This document shows, piece by piece, positions 35,061 through 46,995 of a stretch of DNA of 64,000 bases. The notes beneath the pieces are model-generated. The model had not been told where the DNA came from. It saw nothing but the letters and a program-made list of their open reading frames with translations, and searched no databases. How positions within the stretch are numbered: position 1 is the stretch's first letter; each line of letters starts with the position of its first letter. The position numbers and the translations under genes are program-made. The stretch lies in contig JAFYHQ010000029.1 in the NCBI GenBank assembly GCA_017539105.1, positions 1-64,000 of the forward strand, read 5' to 3'. The stretch is from Erysipelotrichaceae bacterium. GTDB taxonomy: Bacteria > Bacillota_I > Bacilli_A > Erysipelotrichales > Erysipelotrichaceae.

Positions 35061-35665
35061 TGAAGAAGAATAAGATTATTGTTCTGGTTGCGGCAGTATT
35101 GCTGCTGATTGCTTCGGTTCCTTCTGTTCTGGCTTATATCTTTACTTATACGGAAGTAAAGATGGATAAAGACATCACTTTATACTACAAAGAGCCTAAA
35201 TTCAATGAGACCGTGGATGGCGCCAAGCATCTGAAGATCACGGCGACCGAGGACAGCGAATACATGTTTGTCCGTGTTCTGGCTATCACCGATGATGAAA
35301 GCAGGGAGCAGTATCTGATACCTCCTTACAGTTTCTCAAGCGAGGACGATCCTGCCACGACGACGCCGAATCCGGAAAACGCCAATAACGACTGGGTCTA
35401 TAACGAAGAAGATGGTTACTGGTACTACTACAAGCCGATCAAAAAAGGCGAAGAGACCAGCAGCTGGCTGCATATCTATTACGGCGAGCTTGATGATACG
35501 CAAGGCGAGGATAACGATGATTTCCATGTGATCGTTCTTTATGAAGCGGTCGCAGCTCATTTTTCGAATGAAGAGATCAGCGCGAAATCTGTCTGGTATG
35601 ATGAAGAAAATGATGGCTACTGGTACTCGCAGTGGACCGATTCATTTATTGTGGAGGAGGATTAA
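35060..35665 (+). CDS. Small secreted protein, TasA/camelysin-like
   Basis: 201 residues; ATG overlaps the stop of the upstream gene (TAATG). The signal is a long hydrophobic stretch ending PSVLAYIFTYTEVK. That resembles the SipW-processed signal of TasA/camelysin proteins. The mature part is very acidic and aromatic (Trp and Tyr repeats such as DGYWYYYK and DGYWYSQW). It is probably cleaved by the SipW-type peptidase at 38193 and held in a surface fibre. I do not recognise a precise family. Confidence 0.55.
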   Translation: MKKNKIIVLVAAVLLLIASVPSVLAYIFTYTEVKMDKDITLYYKEPKFNETVDGAKHLKITATEDSEYMFVRVLAITDDESREQYLIPPYSFSSEDDPATTTPNPENANNDWVYNEEDGYWYYYKPIKKGEETSSWLHIYYGELDDTQGEDNDDFHVIVLYEAVAAHFSNEEISAKSVWYDEENDGYWYSQWTDSFIVEED

Positions 35666-35666
35666 C

Positions 35667-36446
35667 ATGAAACAGAATAAGATCCTTCCACCTGTTTATC
35701 TGATATTGCTGTTGATTACGATCGTTTTGCTTGGCATGACAACAATCAGCGGAGCCAGAGCGACTTTGTCGGTGAATTCCGAGGAATATGTCAGCAATAT
35801 GCAGGTCAGAAAGATGGGTATCGCTATTTATGATGTTCCGAGTGAAACGATCCTGGCTGAAAAGTATTTTGCCGAAGGCGCTTGGCAGAAAGATGGAGAA
35901 GGCAAGGTATTCACGGATATTTCCGGAGAGGGCTTTATCATCGGCAAGCGTTATGATGAAAACGTGACTGTGGCTAATGTAGGAACGATGGCGGAATATG
36001 TACGTGTCGTTGTCTATAAATACTGGGTCGACAGTCAGGGTAACAAACGTACTGATCTTGATCCGGAACTGATTCATATCGTGTTTGATGATGAAGCGTG
36101 GTATCTGGATGAGTCTTCTGTCACAGAAGAGAGATCGATCCTGTATTATCGCGGCATCCTGGATGCGCCAGAAGAAGATGCGCTTTCGATGACGCCTTCC
36201 TTCGTTCATTCCGTCATGCTGGATGATGGGATCAGAAGCTTATACATCTCCCGCGATGGCACGGATGAAAATGGGAATCCGATCATTGAGTATATCTATG
36301 ATTATGATGGCATGCATTTTATCATTGAAATCGAAGCGGATTCCGTTCAGACGCATAATGCGCTTGATTCGATCAAATCTGCTTGGGGCGTTTCTGATGA
36401 AACGGATGCCGGTAAAGCGGTTTTAGAAGCTTTGGGGGTGAATTAA
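35667..36446 (+). CDS. Second secreted protein with SipW-type signal
   Basis: 259 residues. I chose ATG 35667, with GGAGGAGG eight bases upstream; the frame is open further 5' but lies inside the previous gene. The N-terminal hydrophobic stretch is followed by SGARATLSVNSEEY, the pattern seen after SipW-dependent signals. The mature part has TasA-like features: VTVANVGTMAEYVRVVVYKYW. Function unknown. It lies next to a similar but shorter protein, suggesting two related fibre or matrix subunits. Confidence 0.55.
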   Translation: MKQNKILPPVYLILLLITIVLLGMTTISGARATLSVNSEEYVSNMQVRKMGIAIYDVPSETILAEKYFAEGAWQKDGEGKVFTDISGEGFIIGKRYDENVTVANVGTMAEYVRVVVYKYWVDSQGNKRTDLDPELIHIVFDDEAWYLDESSVTEERSILYYRGILDAPEEDALSMTPSFVHSVMLDDGIRSLYISRDGTDENGNPIIEYIYDYDGMHFIIEIEADSVQTHNALDSIKSAWGVSDETDAGKAVLEALGVN

Positions 36447-36449
36447 CAG

Positions 36450-37196
36450 ATGAAGAAGTTGTTTGTATGTCTGTCCATATGTCTGCTGATGCTAGGCGCA
36501 TTTACCCGCAAAGCGGATGCGGAATACTATTCGGGCGATGATTACACTTTCGAAGTATACTATGATGGCAAAGAGCTGAGCATGAGCGACAGCGATTTGA
36601 AGAAGCTCAAAGATCTCGACGACGCTTTGGCTGATTTCCAGCCCGGCGACAGCATCCTTCTTACTTTCGATATCGTCAACCGCAGTACGAATAAGACAGT
36701 CGACTGGTATATGCGTAACGATTCGGAAAGTTTTGAGGATGGCGATAAGACGTTAGGTGCCATTTATACGTATATCCTTTCTTATGGCTCGAAAGAGTTT
36801 TATAACAGTGATATCGTCGGCGGTGAAGACGAAGGTACGGACGGTCCTTCCGGTATCGAGACCGCAACCATCGATCTGGAGAATTACTTCATTCTTGATC
36901 GTCTGGCTCCGGGAGATAACGGTACTGTTACGATCTACCTGAAGGTCGATGGCGAAACGCAGATCGATGTCTATCAGGAAAAACTGAGCAGTCTGATCGC
37001 ACAGTTCGCGATCGAAGTCGTACCTGATCCGGAACACAAAGAGGAGCATAAGGAGAAGATCATTTATATTCCTTATACCGGCGATGATACGGATTTCTCT
37101 TACTACATGATTGCGGAACTGATCGCATTGCTGCTGATGGCAGCCGTAGTCTATGCCTATTACCGTTACCGTCAGAAACAGGAGGGTGCAAGATAA
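36450..37196 (+). CDS. Surface protein with IPYTG sorting signal
   Basis: 248 residues with a signal peptide ending near RKADAEY (about residue 24). The extracellular domain is beta-rich (LTFDIVNRSTNKTVDWYM). The end reads IPYTGDD, then a hydrophobic segment and a Arg/Lys-rich tail (YRYRQKQEGAR). That is the layout of an LPxTG signal with Ile replacing Leu. The class B sortase at 38690 is a plausible enzyme for the variant motif; this is inference. Its stop overlaps the next ATG. Confidence 0.6.
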   Translation: MKKLFVCLSICLLMLGAFTRKADAEYYSGDDYTFEVYYDGKELSMSDSDLKKLKDLDDALADFQPGDSILLTFDIVNRSTNKTVDWYMRNDSESFEDGDKTLGAIYTYILSYGSKEFYNSDIVGGEDEGTDGPSGIETATIDLENYFILDRLAPGDNGTVTIYLKVDGETQIDVYQEKLSSLIAQFAIEVVPDPEHKEEHKEKIIYIPYTGDDTDFSYYMIAELIALLLMAAVVYAYYRYRQKQEGAR

Positions 37197-38200
37197 TGAA
37201 GAAACTGTTACAGCTTACTGCGATATCTTTGCTGATCCTGATGACGATGACCAGCAAAGTCAGCGCTTATGCGTATGAAGTCGTTTTGAATGCCGGTCTT
37301 TATGGAGCGATCGACGACAGTCAGGAGATCGTTCTGGACTGTGCCTTGAATGACAGGGTGGAAGTGACTGTCAATAGCGACGCTTCTACCGCGGTGATCC
37401 AGCTTAGAGATTCCAATGGCGATGCCAAAGGAGATGCGCATACTCTGGTTCTCAATGATGAGAAGTACTATATCAAGGGAATGCATATTTCCGGTCAGGA
37501 ATTTACGGAAACGAACGCGTTCAACTATCCGGTTGAAAAAGATGCAAAACTGGTATTCGCATATGGCTCGAAAGCGAAGGAACAGATCCGTTATTTCGTT
37601 TACTATGTCGATCCCGATATGAATCCTTTAACGGATGATGATGGCAATCCTTTGCTGGATGACAATGGCGATCCTGTTCCGGAAAGAGAAGTCTTCATGG
37701 GTAATCCGGGCAGTCATCCGGTCGTTGCCTATAAGCATATCGATGGCTATCAGCCGCAGGCTTATCAGCAGACGGCCAGCACGCGTGTCCTGGAAGACTG
37801 GGGCGACGATGAAAACGACCCGAGATGTCTGAAGTTCTACTTCATTTATACGAAACTGGAAGCCGAAAGCGACACTACCACGGTTTATGATGAAACATAT
37901 AAGTATGAATATCTGCCGGGTGGCGGCGGAACCGGTGGCGGAACCGGCGGCGGAGGCGGCAATACGGAACCATCGCAGATCATCGATATCGACGATCCTG
38001 AACCGCCGGTAACACCTACTCCGGACCCTGAACCGGGACCGAATCCGGAACCGGAACCTGAACCTGAACCGACCCCTGATCCGACGTTCTGGCAGATGCT
38101 GCTTGAACATCCTTGGCTGCTGGCGGGTATTGGCGGAGGCTCTGTACTGTTGCTGATATTCCTCTTGCTGCTTTTCAGAAGAAGGAGAAGGAATGACTAA
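37196..38200 (+). CDS. Membrane-anchored surface protein with Gly-rich and Pro-rich linker
   Basis: 334 residues. A signal peptide ends near SKVSAYA. A MucBP-like or collagen-binding-like domain is possible (YFVYYVD and KFYFIYTKLE). From residue 242 it has a linker of Gly-Thr (GGGTGGGTGGGGG) then an EP-rich stretch (PDPEPGPNPEPEPEPEPTP). A single membrane segment and RRRRR end it, with no LPxTG. Long low-complexity linkers usually hold an adhesin domain away from the wall. Function unknown. Confidence 0.6.
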   Translation: MKKLLQLTAISLLILMTMTSKVSAYAYEVVLNAGLYGAIDDSQEIVLDCALNDRVEVTVNSDASTAVIQLRDSNGDAKGDAHTLVLNDEKYYIKGMHISGQEFTETNAFNYPVEKDAKLVFAYGSKAKEQIRYFVYYVDPDMNPLTDDDGNPLLDDNGDPVPEREVFMGNPGSHPVVAYKHIDGYQPQAYQQTASTRVLEDWGDDENDPRCLKFYFIYTKLEAESDTTTVYDETYKYEYLPGGGGTGGGTGGGGGNTEPSQIIDIDDPEPPVTPTPDPEPGPNPEPEPEPEPTPDPTFWQMLLEHPWLLAGIGGGSVLLLIFLLLLFRRRRRND

Positions 38201-38693
38201 GAAGAGTTCTCTTCAGAAGTCATTGATCATATTCGCAAAAACAATCGCAAGTCTTGTCATCATCGGTGTTATCTTGGTTCTGATACCGCTGAGCGTGCCA
38301 AGACTTTTAGGTTATGAAACGTTCAATGTCATATCCGGAAGCATGGAACCGGAACTGCCTGTCGGAAGCCTTTTGCTGGTAAAGAAAACTTCGGAAGCGG
38401 AACTTTCGCAAGGAGATATCATCGCTTTCTATTCTAATGGTACGATCGTGACGCATCGCGTCGTCAGTAACAATGTCTATGAACAGAAACTGAAGACCAA
38501 AGGAGATGCGAACGCGGATGAAGATATCGGCGATGTGGCTTATTCCGAGGTTATCGGCAAGGTCATGCATCATTATCCTTATCTCGGTTCCTTGGGCGAG
38601 TATTTCAGTTCGGTTTCCGGGAAGCTGTCGCTAGCGGAATTGCTGATCTGTGCCGTGCTTGTATATGTCGTTGCCGGAAGGATAAGGACATGA
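38193..38693 (+). CDS. sipW: SipW-type signal peptidase
   Basis: 166 residues, overlapping the upstream and downstream genes by a few bases. The serine is in ISGSMEP and the general base is a His in VTHRVV, so this is the archaeal/ER-like Ser-His type, not the Ser-Lys type. SipW in Bacillus processes TasA and TapA. Here it probably cleaves the two TasA-like proteins upstream. The locus therefore has two signal peptidases of different kinds and one inactive relative. Confidence 0.8.
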   Translation: MTKKSSLQKSLIIFAKTIASLVIIGVILVLIPLSVPRLLGYETFNVISGSMEPELPVGSLLLVKKTSEAELSQGDIIAFYSNGTIVTHRVVSNNVYEQKLKTKGDANADEDIGDVAYSEVIGKVMHHYPYLGSLGEYFSSVSGKLSLAELLICAVLVYVVAGRIRT

Positions 38694-39421
38694 AGAAGAG
38701 GACTGTAACGTATCTGTTTGTTATCGCCATCATCCTGATCCTGATTTTCATGGCTTATATTGCGCTGCAGATGGTAAAAGGAACGCAGGAATATGATGCA
38801 GGCAATGAAGTGTATGACGAGATACGAACGATTGCCCAGAATGAAGATAACGGGGAAACTGCAATCGATTTTGTTGCATTGCAGGAGATCAACGATGATA
38901 TCGTCGGTTGGCTGATCCTTCCTGATACGATCATTGATTATCCGGTCGTAAAGGGAGAGGATAATGATTATTATCTGCATCATCTTTTCGATAAGACATA
39001 TAACTTTCTGGGAACCTTGTTTGTCGATTTCCGTAACAGCGATCCTTTTGAAGATCGGATCACTGCCATTTATGGACATGCGATGCTGAATGGTTCGATG
39101 TTTGCCGTGCTGGAACAGTACAAGAAACAGGATTTCTATGAAGGGCATCGGCAGTTCATATACGAAAGTAAAGACAAGTCTTATGTGTTTGAGCCGTTCG
39201 CGGGAAAAGTCATGGATGCGGCAACACCTTTCCTGCAGTTCAATTTCACGGATGATCAGGAATTTCTTGATTATGTCAATGAATATATCGAACATTCGAC
39301 GTTCAGATCGGATGTTTCCATAAGCAAAGACGATAAGATCGTCATGATGATCAAATGTTCCAAGGATTTTGAAACAGCCCGTTATGTGCTTCTGTGTAAA
39401 GTGACAGAAACGCAGCGATAG
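38690..39421 (+). CDS. Class B sortase
   Basis: 243 residues, ATG overlaps the SipW gene (ATGA). An N-terminal membrane anchor precedes the sortase barrel. Family blocks are present: VGWLILPDTIIDYPVVKG, then IYGHAML (catalytic His) and IKCSKDFETARYVLLCKV, with the Cys and Arg. SrtB enzymes anchor specific wall proteins or assemble some pili. The IPYTG protein nearby is a likely substrate. It gives the locus both class C and class B sortases. Confidence 0.88.
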   Translation: MKKRTVTYLFVIAIILILIFMAYIALQMVKGTQEYDAGNEVYDEIRTIAQNEDNGETAIDFVALQEINDDIVGWLILPDTIIDYPVVKGEDNDYYLHHLFDKTYNFLGTLFVDFRNSDPFEDRITAIYGHAMLNGSMFAVLEQYKKQDFYEGHRQFIYESKDKSYVFEPFAGKVMDAATPFLQFNFTDDQEFLDYVNEYIEHSTFRSDVSISKDDKIVMMIKCSKDFETARYVLLCKVTETQR

Positions 39422-39469
39422 CATCCGCAGGGATCTGCTGTCTTGAATCCCTATAAGGAGGATACGGAA

Positions 39470-40404: not shown

Positions 40405-41004
40405 ATGAGAGAACTGCCATCCACGACTGAGCTCCGCAAGGAACTGTCCAGAGAGATCGTACGCTCGCATATCCGTAAGAAAGCCCTACTGATCGCGATG
40501 ATCCTGCTGGGGTTTTTGTTTATGGTGGTCATCTTCAACATGTCTTTTGCATATAAAGTAAAAGACAGCGATATGTCTCCGACTTTGAATGAAAAAGACA
40601 TTCTGATAATGAAAGGGAAGAAAGACTACGGATCCGGAGATCTGGTCGTATTGGAATATGAAGATCAGAAGATCGTACGGCGTATCGTTGCGGCAGGAAA
40701 CGACTGGATCGATTTCGATCGCAACGGCAACGTTTATGTGAATAATAAGCTTCTGGAAGAATCTTATGTGGATGAAAAATCGTTAGGGAACTGCGATATC
40801 GATCTTCCTTATCAGATTCCGGAAGGACAGTTCTTTGTTTTGGCGGATGAACGGCTGGAAGCCATGGATTCGCGCAAGAAGGCATTCGGCTGCATCGATG
40901 CGGATGAGATCGAAGGCAAGATCGTCTTAAGGATCTGGCCGATGAAAAATATCACTCTCTTCGGAAGAGAGAAGGATAGCCAGACAGAAAAGAACAATGA
41001 TTAA
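40405..41004 (+). CDS. Catalytically dead signal-peptidase paralogue (SipA-like)
   Basis: 199 residues from ATG 40405. It aligns along its whole length with the active signal peptidase at 30472, including NVYVNN.LLEE, DLPYQIPE and GKIVLRIWP. But the catalytic serine position reads Asp56 (in KDSDMSPT against YGTSMTPT) and the catalytic lysine is Arg92 (IVRRIVA against LVKRVIA). Box E also differs (LADERLEAMDSR). It therefore cannot be a normal SPase. The SipA/LepA pilus proteins of streptococci are signal-peptidase folds lacking Ser and Lys that are needed for pilus assembly. A chaperone-like role in pilus building is inferred. Confidence 0.75.
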   Translation: MRELPSTTELRKELSREIVRSHIRKKALLIAMILLGFLFMVVIFNMSFAYKVKDSDMSPTLNEKDILIMKGKKDYGSGDLVVLEYEDQKIVRRIVAAGNDWIDFDRNGNVYVNNKLLEESYVDEKSLGNCDIDLPYQIPEGQFFVLADERLEAMDSRKKAFGCIDADEIEGKIVLRIWPMKNITLFGREKDSQTEKNND

Positions 41005-41029
41005 AATAAAATATCTTTAAGTGTATAAT
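41001..41029 (+). promoter_or_regulatory. Promoter of the MscS/STAS cassette
   Basis: TTAAAA, 17 bases, TATAAT. The -10 ends eight bases before the ATG at 41038, so the transcript would be leaderless or nearly so. No Shine-Dalgarno site is present. Confidence 0.55.
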
Positions 41030-41037
41030 GATAACGT

Positions 41038-41865
41038 ATGGATACTTTAGGCAAAGATTACAGTAAATTAATGGCATATCTGCAGTCCGGAACATTTCTT
41101 GGAAGCATAGTGATTCTGAGCGTCGCTTTGATTATGTTGCGCTTCATCAAACAGTATCTGATCAAGAAGGTCGCTTATTCCGGCAAAGATGAACAGCACA
41201 AGAATACCTTTATCGGTATGATTTTCGGCGTGTTGCAGTATATCGTCATGATCTGTGCCGTCGTCCTTATCCTGCATCTGAATGGCGTCAATGTCGCCAG
41301 CATCCTTGCGGGTTTAGGTATCATGGCTACGATCATCGGTTTGGCTTTGCAGGATACTCTGAAAGATATCATTGCCGGTATCAGCATCTATAACAACAAC
41401 TTTTATAAAGTCGGCGATATGGTCCGGTGGAATGGCGAGATGTGCGATGTATCGTACTTCAGCGCCAGAGTGACAAAATTCCGTTCCGTTACCACGAATT
41501 CGACATATACGGTAAACAATTCGGTGGTCACTTCGATCGAAAAGATCAAGGATCAGTTCTTTTTGAGCTATAATTTCGAATTCGAAACACCGAAAGAAAA
41601 GATCGATAAAGCCATGGAGCGGATCTGCGAACGGGCCAGGGAAGAAGTGAAATACCTGAAGAAGATCAGTTATGCCGGCATTGTCGCAATCGATGAAGAG
41701 GGTGTACGTTATTCGCTGATGCTGAACTGTCCCGCACATAAGGCAGGCCTGATCCGGATACAGGTGACACAGATCGTTTATGAAGAACTGAAAGCGCACA
41801 AGCTCAGGCCGCTGTTCTTCATGGATTCGTTATTTGATGAAAAACCAAAGAAAAAGAAACAATAG
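41038..41865 (+). CDS. MscS-family mechanosensitive channel
   Basis: 275 residues with three hydrophobic segments (about 17-38, 55-77 and 82-110). The third carries the pore-lining Gly/Ala helix typical of MscS (ILAGLGIMATIIGLALQDTLKDIIAG). Then follow the beta domain (YKVGDMVRWNG) and a C-terminal alpha/beta cytoplasmic part. These channels open on membrane tension and release osmolytes. It starts the STAS cassette with a 47-bp gap to the first STAS gene. Co-regulation with a stress-signalling module is inferred. Confidence 0.88.
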   Translation: MDTLGKDYSKLMAYLQSGTFLGSIVILSVALIMLRFIKQYLIKKVAYSGKDEQHKNTFIGMIFGVLQYIVMICAVVLILHLNGVNVASILAGLGIMATIIGLALQDTLKDIIAGISIYNNNFYKVGDMVRWNGEMCDVSYFSARVTKFRSVTTNSTYTVNNSVVTSIEKIKDQFFLSYNFEFETPKEKIDKAMERICERAREEVKYLKKISYAGIVAIDEEGVRYSLMLNCPAHKAGLIRIQVTQIVYEELKAHKLRPLFFMDSLFDEKPKKKKQ

Positions 41866-41912
41866 ACAGACTTGGCAGAGAGAAGCAATATCTGCAGAAA
41901 GCGAGGTAGAAG

Positions 41913-42209
41913 ATGGAAATTAACAAGATTTTGGAAGAAAACAAGCTTACATTAGCTGTAAAGGGAAGAGTGGATTCAGTCAGTGCGCCTGAACTGGAAG
42001 CTGTACTGGAGGAATCGCTGGAAGGCGTAGAGGAACTGGTTTTTGATTTCAGTGAACTCGAATATATCTCTTCCGCCGGTTTGCGTGTCCTTTTGACTTC
42101 ATATAAGAAAATGGCAGAGAAAGGCACCATGAAGATCATCAACATCAATGATGTGATCAGGGAGATTTTTGAAGTCACAGGATTTGCGGATATCTTTACG
42201 ATCGAGTAA
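41913..42209 (+). CDS. Stand-alone STAS protein (anti-sigma-factor-antagonist type)
   Basis: 98 residues, GAGG six bases before the ATG. A SpoIIAA/RsbV-like STAS fold with the phosphorylation-site loop ISSAGLR; Ser54 aligns with the phosphorylated Ser of RsbV. In known partner switching the unphosphorylated form binds the anti-sigma kinase. Here the kinase domain is in the protein at 43306. It is one of three STAS domains in this cassette, and the only one not fused to an enzyme. Confidence 0.85.
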   Translation: MEINKILEENKLTLAVKGRVDSVSAPELEAVLEESLEGVEELVFDFSELEYISSAGLRVLLTSYKKMAEKGTMKIININDVIREIFEVTGFADIFTIE

Positions 42210-42214
42210 AAGAT

Positions 42215-43297
42215 ATGAAGTTTGAAAAAGAAGTAAATGACCAGCAAATCATCATCCGACCTTGCGGCAGGATCGACAGCAATACTTCAGAGGAATTTGA
42301 AGCGTTTGTGAATGCCAATCTCGATGATGAACATGATATCGTTTTTGATTTCAAAGAAACGGAATATATTTCTTCTTCCGGATTGAGGGTCATTCTATTT
42401 CTTAGAAAAGCTTACGCCAGCAGCAAGGTCACTTTTATGAATGTCAACGATGTCGTTTATGATGTCTTTGACCTGTCGGGATTCACGGGATTGTTTACGG
42501 TAATGAAAGCAAGCGATTCCGCGCCTGATACGAAAGTGATTTTTTTTGATATCGATGGCACATTGCTGTCTCCTGCCACGGGACAGGTTCCTGAAAGCAC
42601 CAAGGAAGCCATCCGGATGGTTCAGGAAAAAGGCGTCCAAGCCGTTATCGCAACCGGCAGAGATATCGCGGAAGTCAAGAAACTGCCGCTGGATGGCATC
42701 CGTTTCGATGGCTATCTGACTTTGAACGGTAATATCTGTCTGGATGAGAACGAACATATGTTCGCAGGGAATGCGATCATCCCGGAAGAACTGGATGTGC
42801 TGGTCAATATCTTTAAAGCAGGAAAGATCCCGTTCGTACTGATCGGCGAGAAACAGCGTTACATCAATTATGTCGATGATGTCGTGATACAGACGCAGCT
42901 GTCGACCCATGGAACCGTTCCGGATATCGGGGAATATCAGGGAGAGAACATCTATCAGTGTCTTGCTTTCGTAGATAGCGATGTCAGACGGAAACTGGAA
43001 GACATGCTGGATCACTGCACGATCACAAGCTGGAATGAGACCGGCATCGATATCATTGCCAAGACCGGAGGAAAGGCGGCAGGCATACAGCACTTCCTGG
43101 ATAAGGAGGATCTGACCCGTTCGCAGTCCATGGCGTTTGGCGATGGCGAGAATGATATGGATATGCTGCGCTATGTAGGCGTCGGTGTAGCAATGGGCAA
43201 CTCCAAAGAAATACTGAAACAGAAAGCGGATTATGTCACTACGTCGGTCGATGAAGATGGCATCATGAATGCTTTGAAACATTTCGGTCTGATATAG
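42215..43297 (+). CDS. STAS domain fused to a HAD (Cof-type) phosphatase
   Basis: 360 residues, ATG five bases after the preceding stop. Residues 1-100 are a STAS domain with the site ISSSGLR (Ser54). Residues about 105-360 are a HAD-IIB/Cof hydrolase: motif I DIDGTLLS (nucleophile Asp and acid/base Asp), motif II ATGR, motif IV GDGENDMDML. HAD-IIB enzymes dephosphorylate sugar phosphates and similar molecules. This fusion is not one I know. Phosphorylation of the STAS part could control the hydrolase or tether it to its partner. No ribosome site is visible, so translation may be coupled. Confidence 0.85.
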   Translation: MKFEKEVNDQQIIIRPCGRIDSNTSEEFEAFVNANLDDEHDIVFDFKETEYISSSGLRVILFLRKAYASSKVTFMNVNDVVYDVFDLSGFTGLFTVMKASDSAPDTKVIFFDIDGTLLSPATGQVPESTKEAIRMVQEKGVQAVIATGRDIAEVKKLPLDGIRFDGYLTLNGNICLDENEHMFAGNAIIPEELDVLVNIFKAGKIPFVLIGEKQRYINYVDDVVIQTQLSTHGTVPDIGEYQGENIYQCLAFVDSDVRRKLEDMLDHCTITSWNETGIDIIAKTGGKAAGIQHFLDKEDLTRSQSMAFGDGENDMDMLRYVGVGVAMGNSKEILKQKADYVTTSVDEDGIMNALKHFGLI

Positions 43298-43305
43298 GAG
43301 AGAAA

Positions 43306-45417
43306 ATGAAGAAAAGCGTCCGGGACATGAATTATCTTGAGCGTCTCCATTATTCTTTGAGCGCCAAGATGTTTCATACGATAATGATGTTTTCAACGGT
43401 GCTTGCGCTGGTAGCGCTTGTTTTTGGTCTGGTTTTCTATTCGAACAGTCTCAAGTCCCAATACAGCGAAAAAGCAACCGTATTGGCTGACAATATCGTA
43501 TTGACGATCGATCCCGATCTGTTTGGAAGGATCGTGAAAGAAGCGGAAAGCATCTATGACGATCTGGATGAATCGGTTCGCAACGAACATGACAGTCCTG
43601 CCTACTACAAGGCTTTCGAACCGTTGAAAGATATCCGCTACAACAAGATCCATGATATCCTGAATGAATTCATGTTAAAGGACAAAGCGGAATCGATCGT
43701 GATCGGACAGATGGTAGATGACAGCCATTTCCTGTATCTGTTTGAAGTGAATCGGAACCGGGAAGCATATCCGCTGGGTCATGTCGAAGAAGTCAGTCAG
43801 GAAACGATTAGTGCATTTGAGAAACTGGGTTCCCTGATGCCGGTCATTTTCGATCGAAGCGATGGACAATACAGCTGTACAGGCGCAGGAACGATCCGAA
43901 GCGGCAACAGAGAGATCGCTACGATCGTGACCGCCTATTCTCTGAATGACGTCGCAAAACGGGTCAGGGCATATCTGCTGCAGTTCTTTATTCTGATGCT
44001 TCTGGTAACGGTCTTTATCGATTCTATCATCATCAGGAAGATGAAACGCACCGTCGTCACGCCTATACTGGAACTCAACGAAGCGGCCCGTGCCTATGTA
44101 CAGGATCAGGACGATGAAATGAATACCCTGCATTTCAGCAATCTGAAGATCGATACAGGCGACGAGATCGAAAGCCTGGCTCTGATCATGACAGACATGG
44201 AGAAACAGCTGCAGGAGAATATCCGGGATCTGACCAGGATCACTGCCGATCGCGAAAGGATCGCAACCGAACTGAATGTCGCTTCCCAGATCCAGGAAGG
44301 CATGCTGCCGAACGTGTTCCCGCCATTCCCGGAACGGAAAGAATTTGATATTTATGCTTCGATGTATTCGGCCAAGGAAGTCGGAGGAGACTTCTATGAT
44401 TTCTTCCTTATCGATGACGATCACCTGGCTCTGGTCATTGCGGACGTTTCAGGCAAAGGCATTCCTGCCGCATTGTTCATGATGGCATCCAAGATCATCA
44501 TCAGCAATCTTGCGACGATCGGCATTACCGATCCGGGAACGATTCTGGAAGAAGTCAACAAGCGTATCGTCAGAAACAATCCGATGGAGATGTTTGTCAC
44601 GGTATGGCTGGGTATCCTGGAGATTTCCACCGGCACCCTGAGAGCATCCAACGGCGGACACGAATATCCGTTTGTCCTTCTGAAAGACGACAGGTATGGC
44701 TTGTTCAAGGACAGACACGGCTTTGTTTTAGGCGGGATCGATAACAGCACGTATTCGACTTATGAACTGAAGCTGGAAAAAGGAAACCGTATCTTCGTAT
44801 ATACCGACGGCGTCACGGATGCCACAAACAAAGAAAAAGAACTCTTTGGCGATCAGCGTCTTCTGCAGGCTTTGAATGACAAGCCGGACGCTTCGGTCAG
44901 AGAACTGCTTGAACATATGAAACAGAAGATCGATGAATTCGTACAGGATGCACCGCAATTCGACGATATAACGATGCTGGCGTTACAATATAATGGAGGA
45001 TCAAAGATGGAAGAATTAACGATAGAAGCGACGATCGACAACATTCCTTTCGTAACGGAATTTGTGGATCAGAAACTGGAGGCGCTGGACTGTCCTATCA
45101 AAGCCCAGATGCAGATCGATGTCGCGATCGATGAGCTTTTCAGCAACATCGCCAAATTTGCCTATCATCCGGAAACGGGTCCGGCAACGGTAAGAGTGGA
45201 AGTCGAGGAAGATCCGATGGCGGTGATCATCACTTTTATCGATCACGGCATGCCTTATGATCCTTTGCTGAATGAAGATCCGGATGTAACGCTGAATATC
45301 GAAGACCGGATGGTAGGCGGATTGGGCGTATATCTGGTTAAGAAAACGATGGATGATGTGTCCTATGAATATAAAGACGGACAGAATATCCTGAAAATAA
45401 AGAAGAATCTTTCGTAG
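43306..45417 (+). CDS. Membrane SpoIIE-type phosphatase fused to an RsbW-like kinase
   Basis: 703 residues, AGGAGAG before the ATG. Domains in order: membrane segment (about 22-46), extracellular sensor (about 47-225), membrane segment (about 226-246), HAMP-like linker, PP2C/SpoIIE phosphatase (about 325-560; GGDFYDFF, ADVSGKGIPAAL, SNGGHEYP, TDGVTDA, DDITML), then from 568 a GHKL kinase domain like RsbW/SpoIIAB (DELFSNIAKFAY, DHGMPYDP, GGLGVYLVKKTMDD). The phosphatase would remove phosphate from STAS serines and the kinase would add it. Having both in one chain with a membrane sensor is unusual. An internal start for the kinase alone is at 45007. Confidence 0.85.
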   Translation: MKKSVRDMNYLERLHYSLSAKMFHTIMMFSTVLALVALVFGLVFYSNSLKSQYSEKATVLADNIVLTIDPDLFGRIVKEAESIYDDLDESVRNEHDSPAYYKAFEPLKDIRYNKIHDILNEFMLKDKAESIVIGQMVDDSHFLYLFEVNRNREAYPLGHVEEVSQETISAFEKLGSLMPVIFDRSDGQYSCTGAGTIRSGNREIATIVTAYSLNDVAKRVRAYLLQFFILMLLVTVFIDSIIIRKMKRTVVTPILELNEAARAYVQDQDDEMNTLHFSNLKIDTGDEIESLALIMTDMEKQLQENIRDLTRITADRERIATELNVASQIQEGMLPNVFPPFPERKEFDIYASMYSAKEVGGDFYDFFLIDDDHLALVIADVSGKGIPAALFMMASKIIISNLATIGITDPGTILEEVNKRIVRNNPMEMFVTVWLGILEISTGTLRASNGGHEYPFVLLKDDRYGLFKDRHGFVLGGIDNSTYSTYELKLEKGNRIFVYTDGVTDATNKEKELFGDQRLLQALNDKPDASVRELLEHMKQKIDEFVQDAPQFDDITMLALQYNGGSKMEELTIEATIDNIPFVTEFVDQKLEALDCPIKAQMQIDVAIDELFSNIAKFAYHPETGPATVRVEVEEDPMAVIITFIDHGMPYDPLLNEDPDVTLNIEDRMVGGLGVYLVKKTMDDVSYEYKDGQNILKIKKNLS
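44995..45009 (+). promoter_or_regulatory. Internal Shine-Dalgarno and ATG for a free kinase domain
   Basis: GGAGGA (44995-45000) lies six bases before an in-frame ATG (45007) exactly at the junction between the phosphatase and kinase domains. Initiation here would give a 136-residue RsbW-like protein beside the fusion. It may also mark a recent gene fusion. Confidence 0.55.
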
Positions 45418-45431
45418 ATGGAGGTGAAACG

Positions 45432-46613
45432 ATGGAACTGATCGATGTCAAGAAACACGAAAATGAATTCGTAGTCTGTCTGAAAGGACATATCGATTCA
45501 AATAATGCGTCAGAAGTAGAAAAAGAAATCACCGAAGCGCGTGCGGAACAAAACGGATTGCCTTTGGTGATCGACTGCTCCGATCTGGAGTATATTTCCA
45601 GTGCGGGATTAAGAATTATCCTGAGACTGAAAAAAGAATGCCCTGATCTCAGTGTCATCAATGTGAACAGCGAAGTTTATGAGATCTTTGATATCACCGG
45701 ATTCACCCAGATGATGTCCATCAGCAAGGCGTATCGCAAGGTTTCCATCGAAGGCTGCGAAGTCATCGGACAGGGAGCCAACGGCAAGGTCTACCGTATC
45801 GATCCGGATACGATCGTCAAAGTCTACTATGATTCTGATTCTCTTCCTGACATCCAACGCGAGCGTGAACTTGCAAGGACCGCGCTGATACTGGGAATTC
45901 CTACGGCGATCCCTTATGATGTCGTGAAAGTAGGAGACAGCTACGGTTCCGTCTATGAACTGCTGAACGCAAAATCTTTCGCTCAGCTGATTATCGAAGA
46001 TCCTTCGCGTCTGGATGAAGTGATCGGAATGTCGGTCGATCTTTTGAAAAAGATCCATGCTACAGAAGTCAATGAAGGCGTCATGCCGGATATGAAGGAA
46101 GTCATATTGAACTGGGCAGATTTCCTGAAAGATCATCTTCCTGAGGAACAGTCTGCGAAACTGCGCAAACTGATCGAAGAGGTTCCTTCCGATCTGCATA
46201 TGCTTCATGGCGACTATCATATCAAAAACGTCATGCTTCAGGATGATGAAGTGCTGCTGATCGATATGGACACGTTATGTACGGGCCATCCGATCTTTGA
46301 ATTCGCTTCGATCTTCAATGCCTACCAGGGTTATTGCGAACTGGATCATCAGAACATGATGGATTTCCTGGGAGTTTCATATGAAATCGGTACCGAGATC
46401 TGGAACAAGACACTGAAACTCTATTTCGATGGCAGGAGCGAAGAAGAGATCCTAGCGATCGCCGATAAGGCAAAACTGATCGGTTATTCCCGTATCTTGA
46501 GAAGAACCATCAGACGGAACGGTTACGATACAGAATCAGGCAGAGCGCTGATCGGACACTGCAAGAACCGTATCGGAGAACTGCTGGAAAGCGTCGACAC
46601 GCTGCTGTATTGA
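45432..46613 (+). CDS. STAS domain fused to an APH-like phosphotransferase
   Basis: 393 residues, GGAGGTG before the ATG. Residues 1-100 are a STAS domain with the site ISSAGLR (Ser57). Residues about 105-393 have an aminoglycoside-phosphotransferase/choline-kinase-like fold: nucleotide loop IGQGANGKVYRI, Lys in IVKVYY, catalytic loop HGDYHIKN and metal Asp in LLIDMDT. The kinase substrate may be a small molecule or a protein. It is the third STAS protein of the cassette. Control of the kinase by STAS phosphorylation is inferred. Confidence 0.85.
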   Translation: MELIDVKKHENEFVVCLKGHIDSNNASEVEKEITEARAEQNGLPLVIDCSDLEYISSAGLRIILRLKKECPDLSVINVNSEVYEIFDITGFTQMMSISKAYRKVSIEGCEVIGQGANGKVYRIDPDTIVKVYYDSDSLPDIQRERELARTALILGIPTAIPYDVVKVGDSYGSVYELLNAKSFAQLIIEDPSRLDEVIGMSVDLLKKIHATEVNEGVMPDMKEVILNWADFLKDHLPEEQSAKLRKLIEEVPSDLHMLHGDYHIKNVMLQDDEVLLIDMDTLCTGHPIFEFASIFNAYQGYCELDHQNMMDFLGVSYEIGTEIWNKTLKLYFDGRSEEEILAIADKAKLIGYSRILRRTIRRNGYDTESGRALIGHCKNRIGELLESVDTLLY

Positions 46614-46614
46614 G

Positions 46615-46950
46615 ATGCACAGTTCCAGACAAACGACAATATATATCGGGCTGAACGATTCCGTTTCCAAGCAGCAGAAATTCGACACGGAAAAGTATAT
46701 ATCGTTACTAAAGAGCGTCTGCCAGTCCTATCATGTGGCATTCTCGATGAATGCGACAACGGGAGGATATTTCCATGATGACGGAATCTATGTCGAAGAG
46801 AATACGCTGGTCCTGATGATGCTGGATGTACCGGATGAGATCGTTCAGGAAATCGCCAAAGACCTGTGCACGTTCTTTCATCAGGAAAGCGTCATGGTTA
46901 CCTATTCCGATGCGCAGGTACATTTCATCAAAGAAACGATCGAACTTTGA
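46615..46950 (+). CDS. Small protein of unknown function at the end of the STAS cassette
   Basis: 111 residues; the ATG lies two bases after the STAS-APH stop, without a ribosome site, so re-initiation is likely. It has no membrane segment. Features are an opening TTIYIGLNDS strand, GGYFHDDGIYVEENTLVLMMLDV and a closing VHFIKETIEL. It could be a compact alpha/beta domain. I do not recognise a family. The tight linkage suggests that it works with the STAS-APH protein. Confidence 0.5.
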   Translation: MHSSRQTTIYIGLNDSVSKQQKFDTEKYISLLKSVCQSYHVAFSMNATTGGYFHDDGIYVEENTLVLMMLDVPDEIVQEIAKDLCTFFHQESVMVTYSDAQVHFIKETIEL

Positions 46951-46966
46951 TGACAGAATGAACAAC

Positions 46967-46995
46967 AAAAAACTCAGCAAATGCTGAGTTTTTGT
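46967..46995. terminator. Bidirectional terminator between convergent genes
   Basis: AAAAAACTCAGC, loop AAAT, GCTGAGTTTTTG. It ends the STAS cassette on the plus strand and the nucleotidase gene on the minus strand. Confidence 0.85.

Follow-up and report, generated by a model that had tools for sequence, protein, structure and literature searches.

Partner switching is a textbook mode of transcription control, and to our knowledge the targets of RsbW-class kinases are sigma factors of the SigB/F/G type. The Bacillus subtilis SpoIIAA/SpoIIAB/SpoIIE and RsbV/RsbW systems combine a PP2C-type phosphatase, a GHKL-type kinase, and a STAS protein whose serine motif is conserved. Enzyme outputs have also been published. 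SiaC of Pseudomonas aeruginosa, a separate protein with a DUF1987 domain, controls the diguanylate cyclase SiaD, and the phosphorylation state of a STAS protein governs a diguanylate cyclase in HsbA-HsbD and BgrV-BgrR. A preliminary description of the DNA studied here stated that known partner switches lead to sigma factors, which was therefore wrong.

In this work, we analyzed a window of 64,000 nt from an Erysipelotrichaceae genome (89% complete) that contains a six-gene cassette with the same phosphatase, kinase, and STAS components as the B. subtilis systems. In contrast to those systems, no SigB/F/G partner was found, the phosphatase and kinase form one membrane protein, and two of the STAS domains are fused to enzymes. 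The cassette resembles SiaABCD as a putative sigma-free switch with an enzyme output, although its SpoIIE part scores far below the cut-off of the SiaA model (68.6 of 700 bits). It resembles HsbA-HsbD and BgrV-BgrR in placing an enzyme under apparent STAS control; in those systems the STAS protein is separate and the enzyme is a diguanylate cyclase rather than a kinase or a HAD phosphatase. Searches of open-licence PubMed Central listed no description of this STAS-enzyme system. On the best reading, the cassette would add STAS-tagged enzymes and an RsbW-tagged transporter to the outputs of enzyme-directed partner switches.

Domain architecture of the cassette

The features are as follows (+, forward strand).

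41,001–41,029, +: weak promoter-like site just 5′ of the MscS gene (TTAAAA, 17-nt spacer, TATAAT; 10/12 matches)
41,038–41,865, +: MscS-type channel, 275 aa (PF00924, MS_channel, 7.7e-8; dN/dS 0.116 against G189)
41,913–42,209, +: lone STAS protein, RsbV/SpoIIAA-like, 98 aa (PF01740, 6.9e-16; TIGR00377 above cut-off)
42,066–42,086, +: ISSAGLR phospho-site motif read from the sequence, lone STAS residues 52–58
42,215–43,297, +: STAS-HAD, a STAS domain with a Cof-type HAD-IIB phosphatase, 360 aa (PF01740, 1.5e-12; PF08282, 1.6e-50; TIGR00099 above cut-off)
42,368–42,388, +: ISSSGLR motif, STAS-HAD residues 52–58 (both serines in 10/10 relatives used)
43,306–45,417, +: membrane protein of 703 aa joining a SpoIIE-type phosphatase to an RsbW-type kinase (PF07228, 4.8e-48; PF13581, HATPase_c_2, 1.1e-17)
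45,432–46,613, +: STAS-APH, a STAS domain with an APH/choline-kinase-fold kinase, 393 aa (PF01740, 7.3e-16; APH, 1.4e-16)
45,594–45,614, +: ISSAGLR motif, STAS-APH residues 55–61 (all but A58 invariant in 29/29 A1 proteins)
46,206–46,265, +: APH catalytic stretch HGDYHIKN...ID, STAS-APH residues 259–278 (invariant residues in A1)
46,615–46,950, +: small protein with a DUF3574/SAM-lyase-like fold, 111 aa (Pfam DUF3574 and SAM lyase matches just below cut-offs)
46,968–46,993, either strand: two-way terminator-like hairpin with an 11-pair stem, 3′ of the small-protein gene, closing the operon

The six genes form one run on the + strand (41,038–46,950) with intergenic gaps of 47, 5, 8, 14, and 1 nt. 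This arrangement agreed base for base with the preliminary description, and its domain identities were borne out by Pfam for MscS, the three STAS domains, HAD, SpoIIE, RsbW, and APH; the ISS(A/S)GLR motif that it assigned to all three STAS domains was likewise present (ISSAGLR, ISSSGLR, and ISSAGLR). Transcription from the promoter-like site would begin nearly at the annotated ATG, so that MscS may in fact start downstream of that codon; such sites are no commoner in the region than in shuffled sequences (12 found, 13.1 expected). By a simple count against G189, the nearest genome with an identical six-gene order, dN/dS was 0.02–0.12 across all six genes, which look to be under purifying selection. 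We considered an RNA regulator and rejected it, as the window has no match at an Rfam threshold other than the tRNA.

The components that partner switching requires are all found. The phosphatase part retains D362, D380, D501, D553, and D554, its presumed metal-site aspartates; of the 59 relatives used (of 64), no fewer than 58 share each of them. Its hydrophobic segments (residues 26–44 and 225–243) presumably flank an outside sensor region. The kinase part carries the ATP-site motifs DELFSN, DHG, and GGLG of GHKL kinases of the RsbW/SpoIIAB type, and E610 and N614 are kept in all 69 relatives in which the domain is not on APH or MATE. The three STAS domains with the conserved serine motif account for all STAS matches in the genome. 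Both motif serines of the lone STAS are kept in 68/68 relatives used (of 69), and the AlphaFold STAS domain superposes on RsbV of the RsbV/RsbW complex (6m36) at 1.9 Å over 97 residues.

The APH part has the HGDxxxxN and DxD motifs and the kinase fold of the APH/choline kinase superfamily. Residues K130, H259, G260, D261, N266, D278, and D280 are invariant in the 29 A1 sequences, the family STAS-APH proteins gathered by a whole-protein rather than a motif search. The folds closest to it are those of kinases acting on choline/ethanolamine, aminoglycosides, steroids, and other small molecules; a shared fold does not show function. Scores against the curated aminoglycoside-resistance models were far below cut-off (APH(6)-I, 23.8 bits against 325; APH(3′), 17.4 against 205). 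The best NCBIfam match is TIGR02172, a paralog family with no function in its name (1.1e-33; 117 bits, cut-off 228), and no paper found in open-licence PubMed Central names this family. For the HAD part, the nearest solved structure is the sugar-phosphatase BT4131 (1ymq, 1.9e-41). The small protein has a SAM-lyase-like fold, and Glu69, the critical residue of the phage SAM lyase Svi3-3, is matched in the alignment by its E62; unlike that enzyme, it is chromosomal and lies in a signaling operon, and the sequence match is weak (E 0.0093).

Distribution and gene partners in relatives

Near full-length STAS-APH was found in 32 of 195 genomes of the same family and in 78 of the 80 loci retained after scanning named genomes, most of which are Bacillota of gut and rumen. 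The scan used two peptide patterns, ExxLIDMDT and YISSAGLR, and the conservation of motifs in these 80 loci partly reflects that choice; its 587 stretches can contain lone STAS genes and should not be taken as a tally of STAS-APH. Gene calls in the loci of relatives were mechanical. Plasmid spread was also considered and rejected, as no STAS-APH match at 1e-20 was found among plasmid records.

An RsbW domain is fused to STAS-APH or lies within five genes of it in 93/110 loci (92 on the same strand; MATE fusions excluded). For loci flanked by 4 kb or more on each side the count is 60/68, and the remaining eight suggest that STAS-APH may sometimes work without a nearby RsbW. Direct STAS-APH-RsbW fusions occur in 29/110 loci, all 29 with E610, N614, D646, and G648. 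Among the 195 family genomes, STAS-HAD is confined to those with STAS-APH but is mostly unlinked to it. An MscS gene lies within five genes in 5/110 loci. The suggested tie to membrane tension is accordingly weak, the phosphatase having a presumed transmembrane sensor region of its own.

The STAS-HAD fusion is present in 15 of the 195 family genomes, all 15 among the 32 with STAS-APH; it lies inside the cassette in three genomes, and the domain order is reversed (HAD-STAS) in 2/15. A MATE-type RsbW domain occurs, mostly unlinked, in 23 family genomes, again all among the 32, and reads as an intact fusion in 22 of them. The 195 genomes belong to one family and are related, so these counts are not independent; comparison within genera, which reduces the effect of kinship without removing it, gave 3/3 v 0/11, 2/2 v 0/5, 2/6 v 0/3, and 7/12 v 0/3 for STAS-HAD with and without STAS-APH, and a product of 2.9e-6 for MATE-RsbW. 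The genome studied here has two MATE-RsbW fusions. The MATE RsbW domain lacks the DxG and GGLG motifs and may therefore not be a kinase.

Two further enzymes are coupled to STAS-APH in relatives. An alarmone-hydrolase-like gene is coupled in 36/110 loci, directly upstream in 36/36 (gaps −71 to 59 nt), and a PHP phosphoesterase gene in 22/110. Published small alarmone hydrolases (Lmo0812, RelH, and MESH1) hydrolyze (p)ppGpp, (p)ppApp, and NADPH. The neighbor genes in relatives appear similar by sequence: the three scanned match PF13328 (HD_4; 6e-19, 1.8e-21, and 2e-18), the H, HD, ED, and D residues of the family are present (H32, H56, D57, E60, D61, and D124 in 36/36 used, of 37), and in the one searched, the ~190-aa neighbor of L040, residues 6–186 match 4yf1 (2.1e-27). 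The cassette in the window has no such gene. We rejected STAS-HAD as a plain stand-in for it, because L035 has both and six genomes (G015, G098, G135, G140, G148, and G153) combine the hydrolase in the cassette with STAS-HAD or HAD-STAS elsewhere.

Mutual exclusion of the hydrolase and PHP genes (both in 0/110 loci; ~7 expected by simple product) is statistically unsafe. A paired test on the tree (107 rows, with L036, L043, L104, L142, and L147 omitted before counting as near-copies or for broken or cut reading frames) gave a median p of 1, having too few informative pairs because most PHP loci (16/22) have RsbW fused to STAS-APH and the 29 fusions all belong to a single 35-row clade. A starred clade does group L116 (PHP) with L048 and L124 (hydrolase).

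Candidate outputs of the switch

The absence of a sigma factor noted in the preliminary description extends to the whole contig of the window. The four Sigma70_r2 proteins of the genome, three of them small ECF-like sigma factors, all lie on other contigs, and none reaches the cut-off of the SigB/F/G model in this 89% complete genome. Among the family genomes, 36/195 have a match above cut-off, yet only 1/32 with STAS-APH (G119). Based on these searches of the genome and of the 195 family genomes, we rejected a sigma factor as the likely output. The Pfam scan of the unassigned operon neighbors took in 138 of 162 and listed the 25 commonest of 172 families, and a rare sigma gene is possible there.

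We consider it probable, from gene content and conserved residues, that the cassette works as a partner-switching operon without a sigma factor, its outputs being enzymes with STAS tags and a MATE transporter with an RsbW tag. RsbW would phosphorylate the STAS domains, and a signal at the membrane SpoIIE phosphatase, or the ATP state, would set the extent to which this is reversed. The STAS domains on the APH-fold kinase and the HAD phosphatase would serve as regulatory tags, at which phosphorylation or RsbW binding switches the attached enzyme, presumably one acting on small molecules. The lone STAS would compete for the kinase and set a threshold, and MATE-RsbW, encoded elsewhere in the genome, may bind the unphosphorylated lone STAS and read it out. 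The direction of this control is our inference. Enzymes as the output, which had been suggested earlier, appear likely given the conserved fusions, the retained phospho-site and catalytic residues, and the loci in which the kinase is fused to STAS-APH.

A classical anti-sigma switch with an unlinked sigma factor, in which the STAS proteins are mere antagonists and the enzyme parts passengers, would fit the resemblance of the RsbW and STAS domains to the RsbW/SpoIIAB and RsbV/SpoIIAA families and could draw on the three ECF-like factors. We regard it as improbable, since 31/32 STAS-APH genomes have no SigB/F/G above cut-off, none of the four Sigma70_r2 matches is on the contig (0/4), the APH part has retained its catalytic residues, and 29/110 loci encode the kinase as a fusion with STAS-APH. 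Strongly disfavored, with hardly any chance of being correct, is the view that a sporulation or stress switch has lost its sigma factor and is now decaying: the SigB/F/G matches in 36 family genomes suggest that the ancestor may have had one, but the dN/dS values, the invariant catalytic residues, and the presence of the system in distant gut Bacillota all speak against decay.

Proteins can be phosphorylated by APH-fold kinases, and the APH part might act as a protein kinase within the switch, for example on its RsbW partner, the neighboring hydrolase, or a translation factor. The tight coupling to the hydrolase-like gene favors this, whereas the closest folds are small-molecule kinases, though fold shows no function; we give it a modest chance. 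The main output could instead be an unlinked diguanylate cyclase or MATE-RsbW acting through the lone STAS, with the STAS enzymes as side branches or feedback. Diguanylate cyclases are under STAS control in HsbA-HsbD and BgrV-BgrR, and the three GGDEF matches in the genome mean that the lone STAS could act on such an enzyme. These matches all lie on contig C35, and none is on C23, the contig of the window, so no cyclase is encoded with the switch as in SiaABCD, Hsb, or Bgr. The two MATE-RsbW fusions, and their co-occurrence with STAS-APH in 23/23 genomes, also agree with this alternative; the STAS-APH-RsbW fusions and conserved adjacency make the APH enzyme central in most loci, and we give the unlinked output a modest chance. 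A rather doubtful further possibility is a dedicated small-molecule signaling circuit, run by a partner switch and without a sigma factor, in which STAS-APH makes a phosphorylated, probably nucleotide-like signal that is removed or altered by the alarmone-hydrolase-like, PHP, STAS-HAD, and SAM-lyase-like enzymes, and MscS and MATE-RsbW act at the membrane.

Implications for gut and rumen Bacillota

The fusion set comprises STAS-APH, STAS-HAD, HAD-STAS, STAS-APH-RsbW, and MATE-RsbW, and in each the target is already attached to the switch, which makes sigma-free outputs directly testable. The work also connects a signaling operon with a gene resembling those of alarmone hydrolases and with a chromosomal protein resembling SAM lyases. 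Because many Bacillota of gut and rumen carry switch parts on enzymes and on a transporter, metabolism and transport could both come under the direct control of a single phosphorylation circuit.

The partner-switching cassette and its genome

The six genes of the cassette (41038-46950) occupy exactly the positions given in the preliminary description, all on the forward strand and separated by 47, 5, 8, 14, and 1 nt. Pfam and NCBIfam both agree with the domain assignments made there: MscS, a lone STAS protein, STAS fused to a HAD phosphatase (STAS-HAD), SpoIIE-RsbW, STAS fused to an APH-fold kinase (STAS-APH), and a small protein of 111 aa. The phospho-site motif was likewise borne out in the three STAS domains (ISSAGLR, ISSSGLR, and ISSAGLR). 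All parts of a partner switch are present except for a sigma factor, and two of the STAS parts are joined to enzymes. The SpoIIE-RsbW protein has hydrophobic segments at residues 26-44 and 225-243, which make it look, from its sequence, like a membrane receptor. The six-gene run ends at the following feature:

46968-46993: terminator-like hairpin

Genome G189 of the family shares the six-gene order, and in a comparison with it a simple count gave dN/dS values of 0.02-0.12 across all six genes, with dS of 0.7-1.5. The assembly that contains the window comprises 2.09 Mb in 48 contigs, with a completeness of 89%. Its three STAS matches are all inside the cassette. Of its three HATPase_c_2 matches, one is the kinase of the cassette, and the other two are MATE transporters that carry an RsbW-like domain at the C-terminus (MATE-RsbW). 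Upstream of the cassette (35541-39424), the genes resemble those for secreted surface proteins, together with a signal peptidase of the SipW type and an enzyme similar to sortases, as read from ORF translations alone.

The absence of a sigma factor that had been proposed for this system holds for the cassette itself, and sigma factors of the SigB/F/G type are rare in genomes with STAS-APH. Among the 195 genomes sampled from the family, the SigB/F/G model scored above its cut-off in 36, but in only one of the 32 that carry STAS-APH; that one is G119 (contamination 7%). The genome of the window has four Sigma70_r2 proteins, which we read as one RpoD-like and three ECF-like factors. One ECF-like sigma factor (461 aa; locus L007:385-1770) has a long C-terminal extension past its r2 and r4 regions.

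Distribution of STAS-APH and its linkage to RsbW

Near full-length STAS-APH (bits above 300) was found in 32 of the 195 family genomes. In a phylum-wide draw of 392 genomes, 12 had matches at E below 1e-50, and these 12 belong to four families. Of the 80 loci retained from a scan of named genomes, 78 have a near full-length match. The loci come mostly from gut and rumen Bacillota MAGs, and one is from a Spirochaetales MAG. The record titles include Erysipelotrichaceae, Lachnospiraceae, Oscillospiraceae, and Christensenella; among named records, the best match to STAS-APH comes from a Solobacterium MAG, with Erysipelotrichaceae MAGs next. In an alignment of 29 family proteins, invariant residues include those of the STAS motif (Y54, I55, S56, S57, G59, L60, and R61) and of the APH kinase (K130, H259, G260, D261, N266, D278, and D280).

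Across 110 STAS-APH loci (31 from the family and 79 from the scan), RsbW, not counting MATE fusions, is fused or located within five genes in 93, on the same strand in 92. For the 68 loci that are flanked by 4 kb or more on each side this number is 60, and no RsbW was found within five genes in the other eight (L057, L059, L061, L077, L080, L095, L113, and L146). RsbW is fused behind STAS-APH in 29 of the 110 loci, and the fused domain retains E610, N614, D646, and G648 in every case. Within five genes, SpoIIE is present on the same strand in 58 loci and a lone STAS in 62. A family of ~200 aa occurs in seven loci (L036:10962-11561, L140:4107-4712, and five others); two members were scanned with Pfam and had no match, and by appearance the family looks like a degenerate RsbW.

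Additional enzymes and transporters associated with STAS-APH

STAS-HAD fusions were found in 15 of the 195 family genomes, all among the 32 with STAS-APH (Fisher, 6e-14). The split also holds within genera (with versus without STAS-APH: 3/3 v 0/11, 2/2 v 0/5, 2/6 v 0/3, and 7/12 v 0/3; product 6.7e-6). STAS-HAD lies inside a STAS-APH cassette in only three genomes, though (G189, G121, and that of the window, G000). In two of the 15 genomes (G140 and G153) the domain order is reversed, which suggests that the HAD/STAS fusion had more than one origin or was reshuffled. At L062 and L064, where STAS-HAD lies outside a STAS-APH cassette, its surroundings include a separate pair of STAS and RsbW genes and a gene that resembles those for sensor histidine kinases.

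The RsbW domain of MATE-RsbW was found in 23 of the 195 genomes at E below 1e-12, all 23 among the 32 with STAS-APH (within-genus product 2.9e-6); the other nine of the 32 had no match at this threshold. Intact frames of 581-622 aa are present in 22 genomes, and G002 has only short RsbW frames (103 and 83 aa). In these proteins of ~590 aa, the C-terminal RsbW-like domain is without DxG and GGLG motifs. Of the 110 loci, 12 have MATE-RsbW no more than five genes away from STAS-APH. One cluster of dicarboxylate symporters takes in five operon neighbors of STAS-APH, and the three scanned singly belong to the SDF family. Their N-terminal parts aligned weakly with RsbW (one comparison; hhalign probability 79, E 1.7e-5) and, by sequence, look like a degenerate RsbW domain.

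A protein of ~190 aa with an HD_4 domain, similar to small alarmone hydrolases, is encoded directly upstream of STAS-APH (position -1; gaps of -71 to 59 nt) in all 36 of the 110 loci that have it nearby, and all 36 sequences used retain H32, H56, D57, E60, D61, and D124. Matches above 150 bits occur in 16 family genomes, 15 of which have STAS-APH; the sixteenth is G076, with a completeness of 66%. A PHP protein is near STAS-APH in 22 loci (at position +1 in 19), mostly where RsbW is fused, and its top models, below cut-off, are RNase RNM and 3',5'-nucleoside bisphosphate phosphatase. The two hydrolases were together in 0 of 110 loci, a pattern for which the tree does not allow a safe test of exclusion. 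Placing the label for the alarmone hydrolase-like gene on this tree (107 rows) requires 24 changes, and starred branches force no fewer than 10 of these; the gene was therefore gained or lost many times. The cassette in the window has neither HD_4 nor PHP gene, and HD_4 matches in its genome are one long RelA-like protein and one weak partial match.

Features at STAS-APH loci and related stretches
L068:5447-6535; L210:488-1606: HAD-STAS, reverse order, two genomes
L009:88-1857; L010:88-1854: MATE-RsbW transporters, genome of the window
L186-L206; L208: further MATE-RsbW transporters
L058:7255-8952; L074:4806-6458; L088:7328-8971; L093:7301-8908; L123:2900-4504: symporter-type neighbors
L084:7137-8003; L085:9800-10681; 20 other loci: PHP-domain phosphoesterase beside STAS-APH

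Enzymes as putative outputs of the switch

Known partner switching had been taken to end at a sigma factor. This is incorrect: SiaC-SiaD, HsbA-HsbD, and BgrV-BgrR end at an enzyme and control diguanylate cyclases, and a review describes STAS proteins with unknown targets. In those three systems the STAS or STAS-like partner is a protein of its own, whereas two STAS domains of the cassette are fused to enzymes. A search of the open-licence literature gave no account of a STAS domain joined to an APH kinase or a HAD phosphatase with RsbW, nor of MATE-RsbW.

The simplest reading is that the outputs are the STAS-tagged enzymes, which would be switched by phosphorylation of the STAS tag or by binding of RsbW to it; we infer the phosphorylation, the direction in which it would control the enzymes, and their substrates. 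The strongest support for enzyme outputs comes from the STAS-APH-RsbW fusions, in which the kinase and its presumed substrate share one chain. Phosphorylated nucleotides are the substrates of the families to which the HD_4 and PHP neighbors show similarity, and by this analogy a nucleotide-like substrate is an unproven but attractive guess; for STAS-HAD, the nearest match is a sugar-phosphatase.
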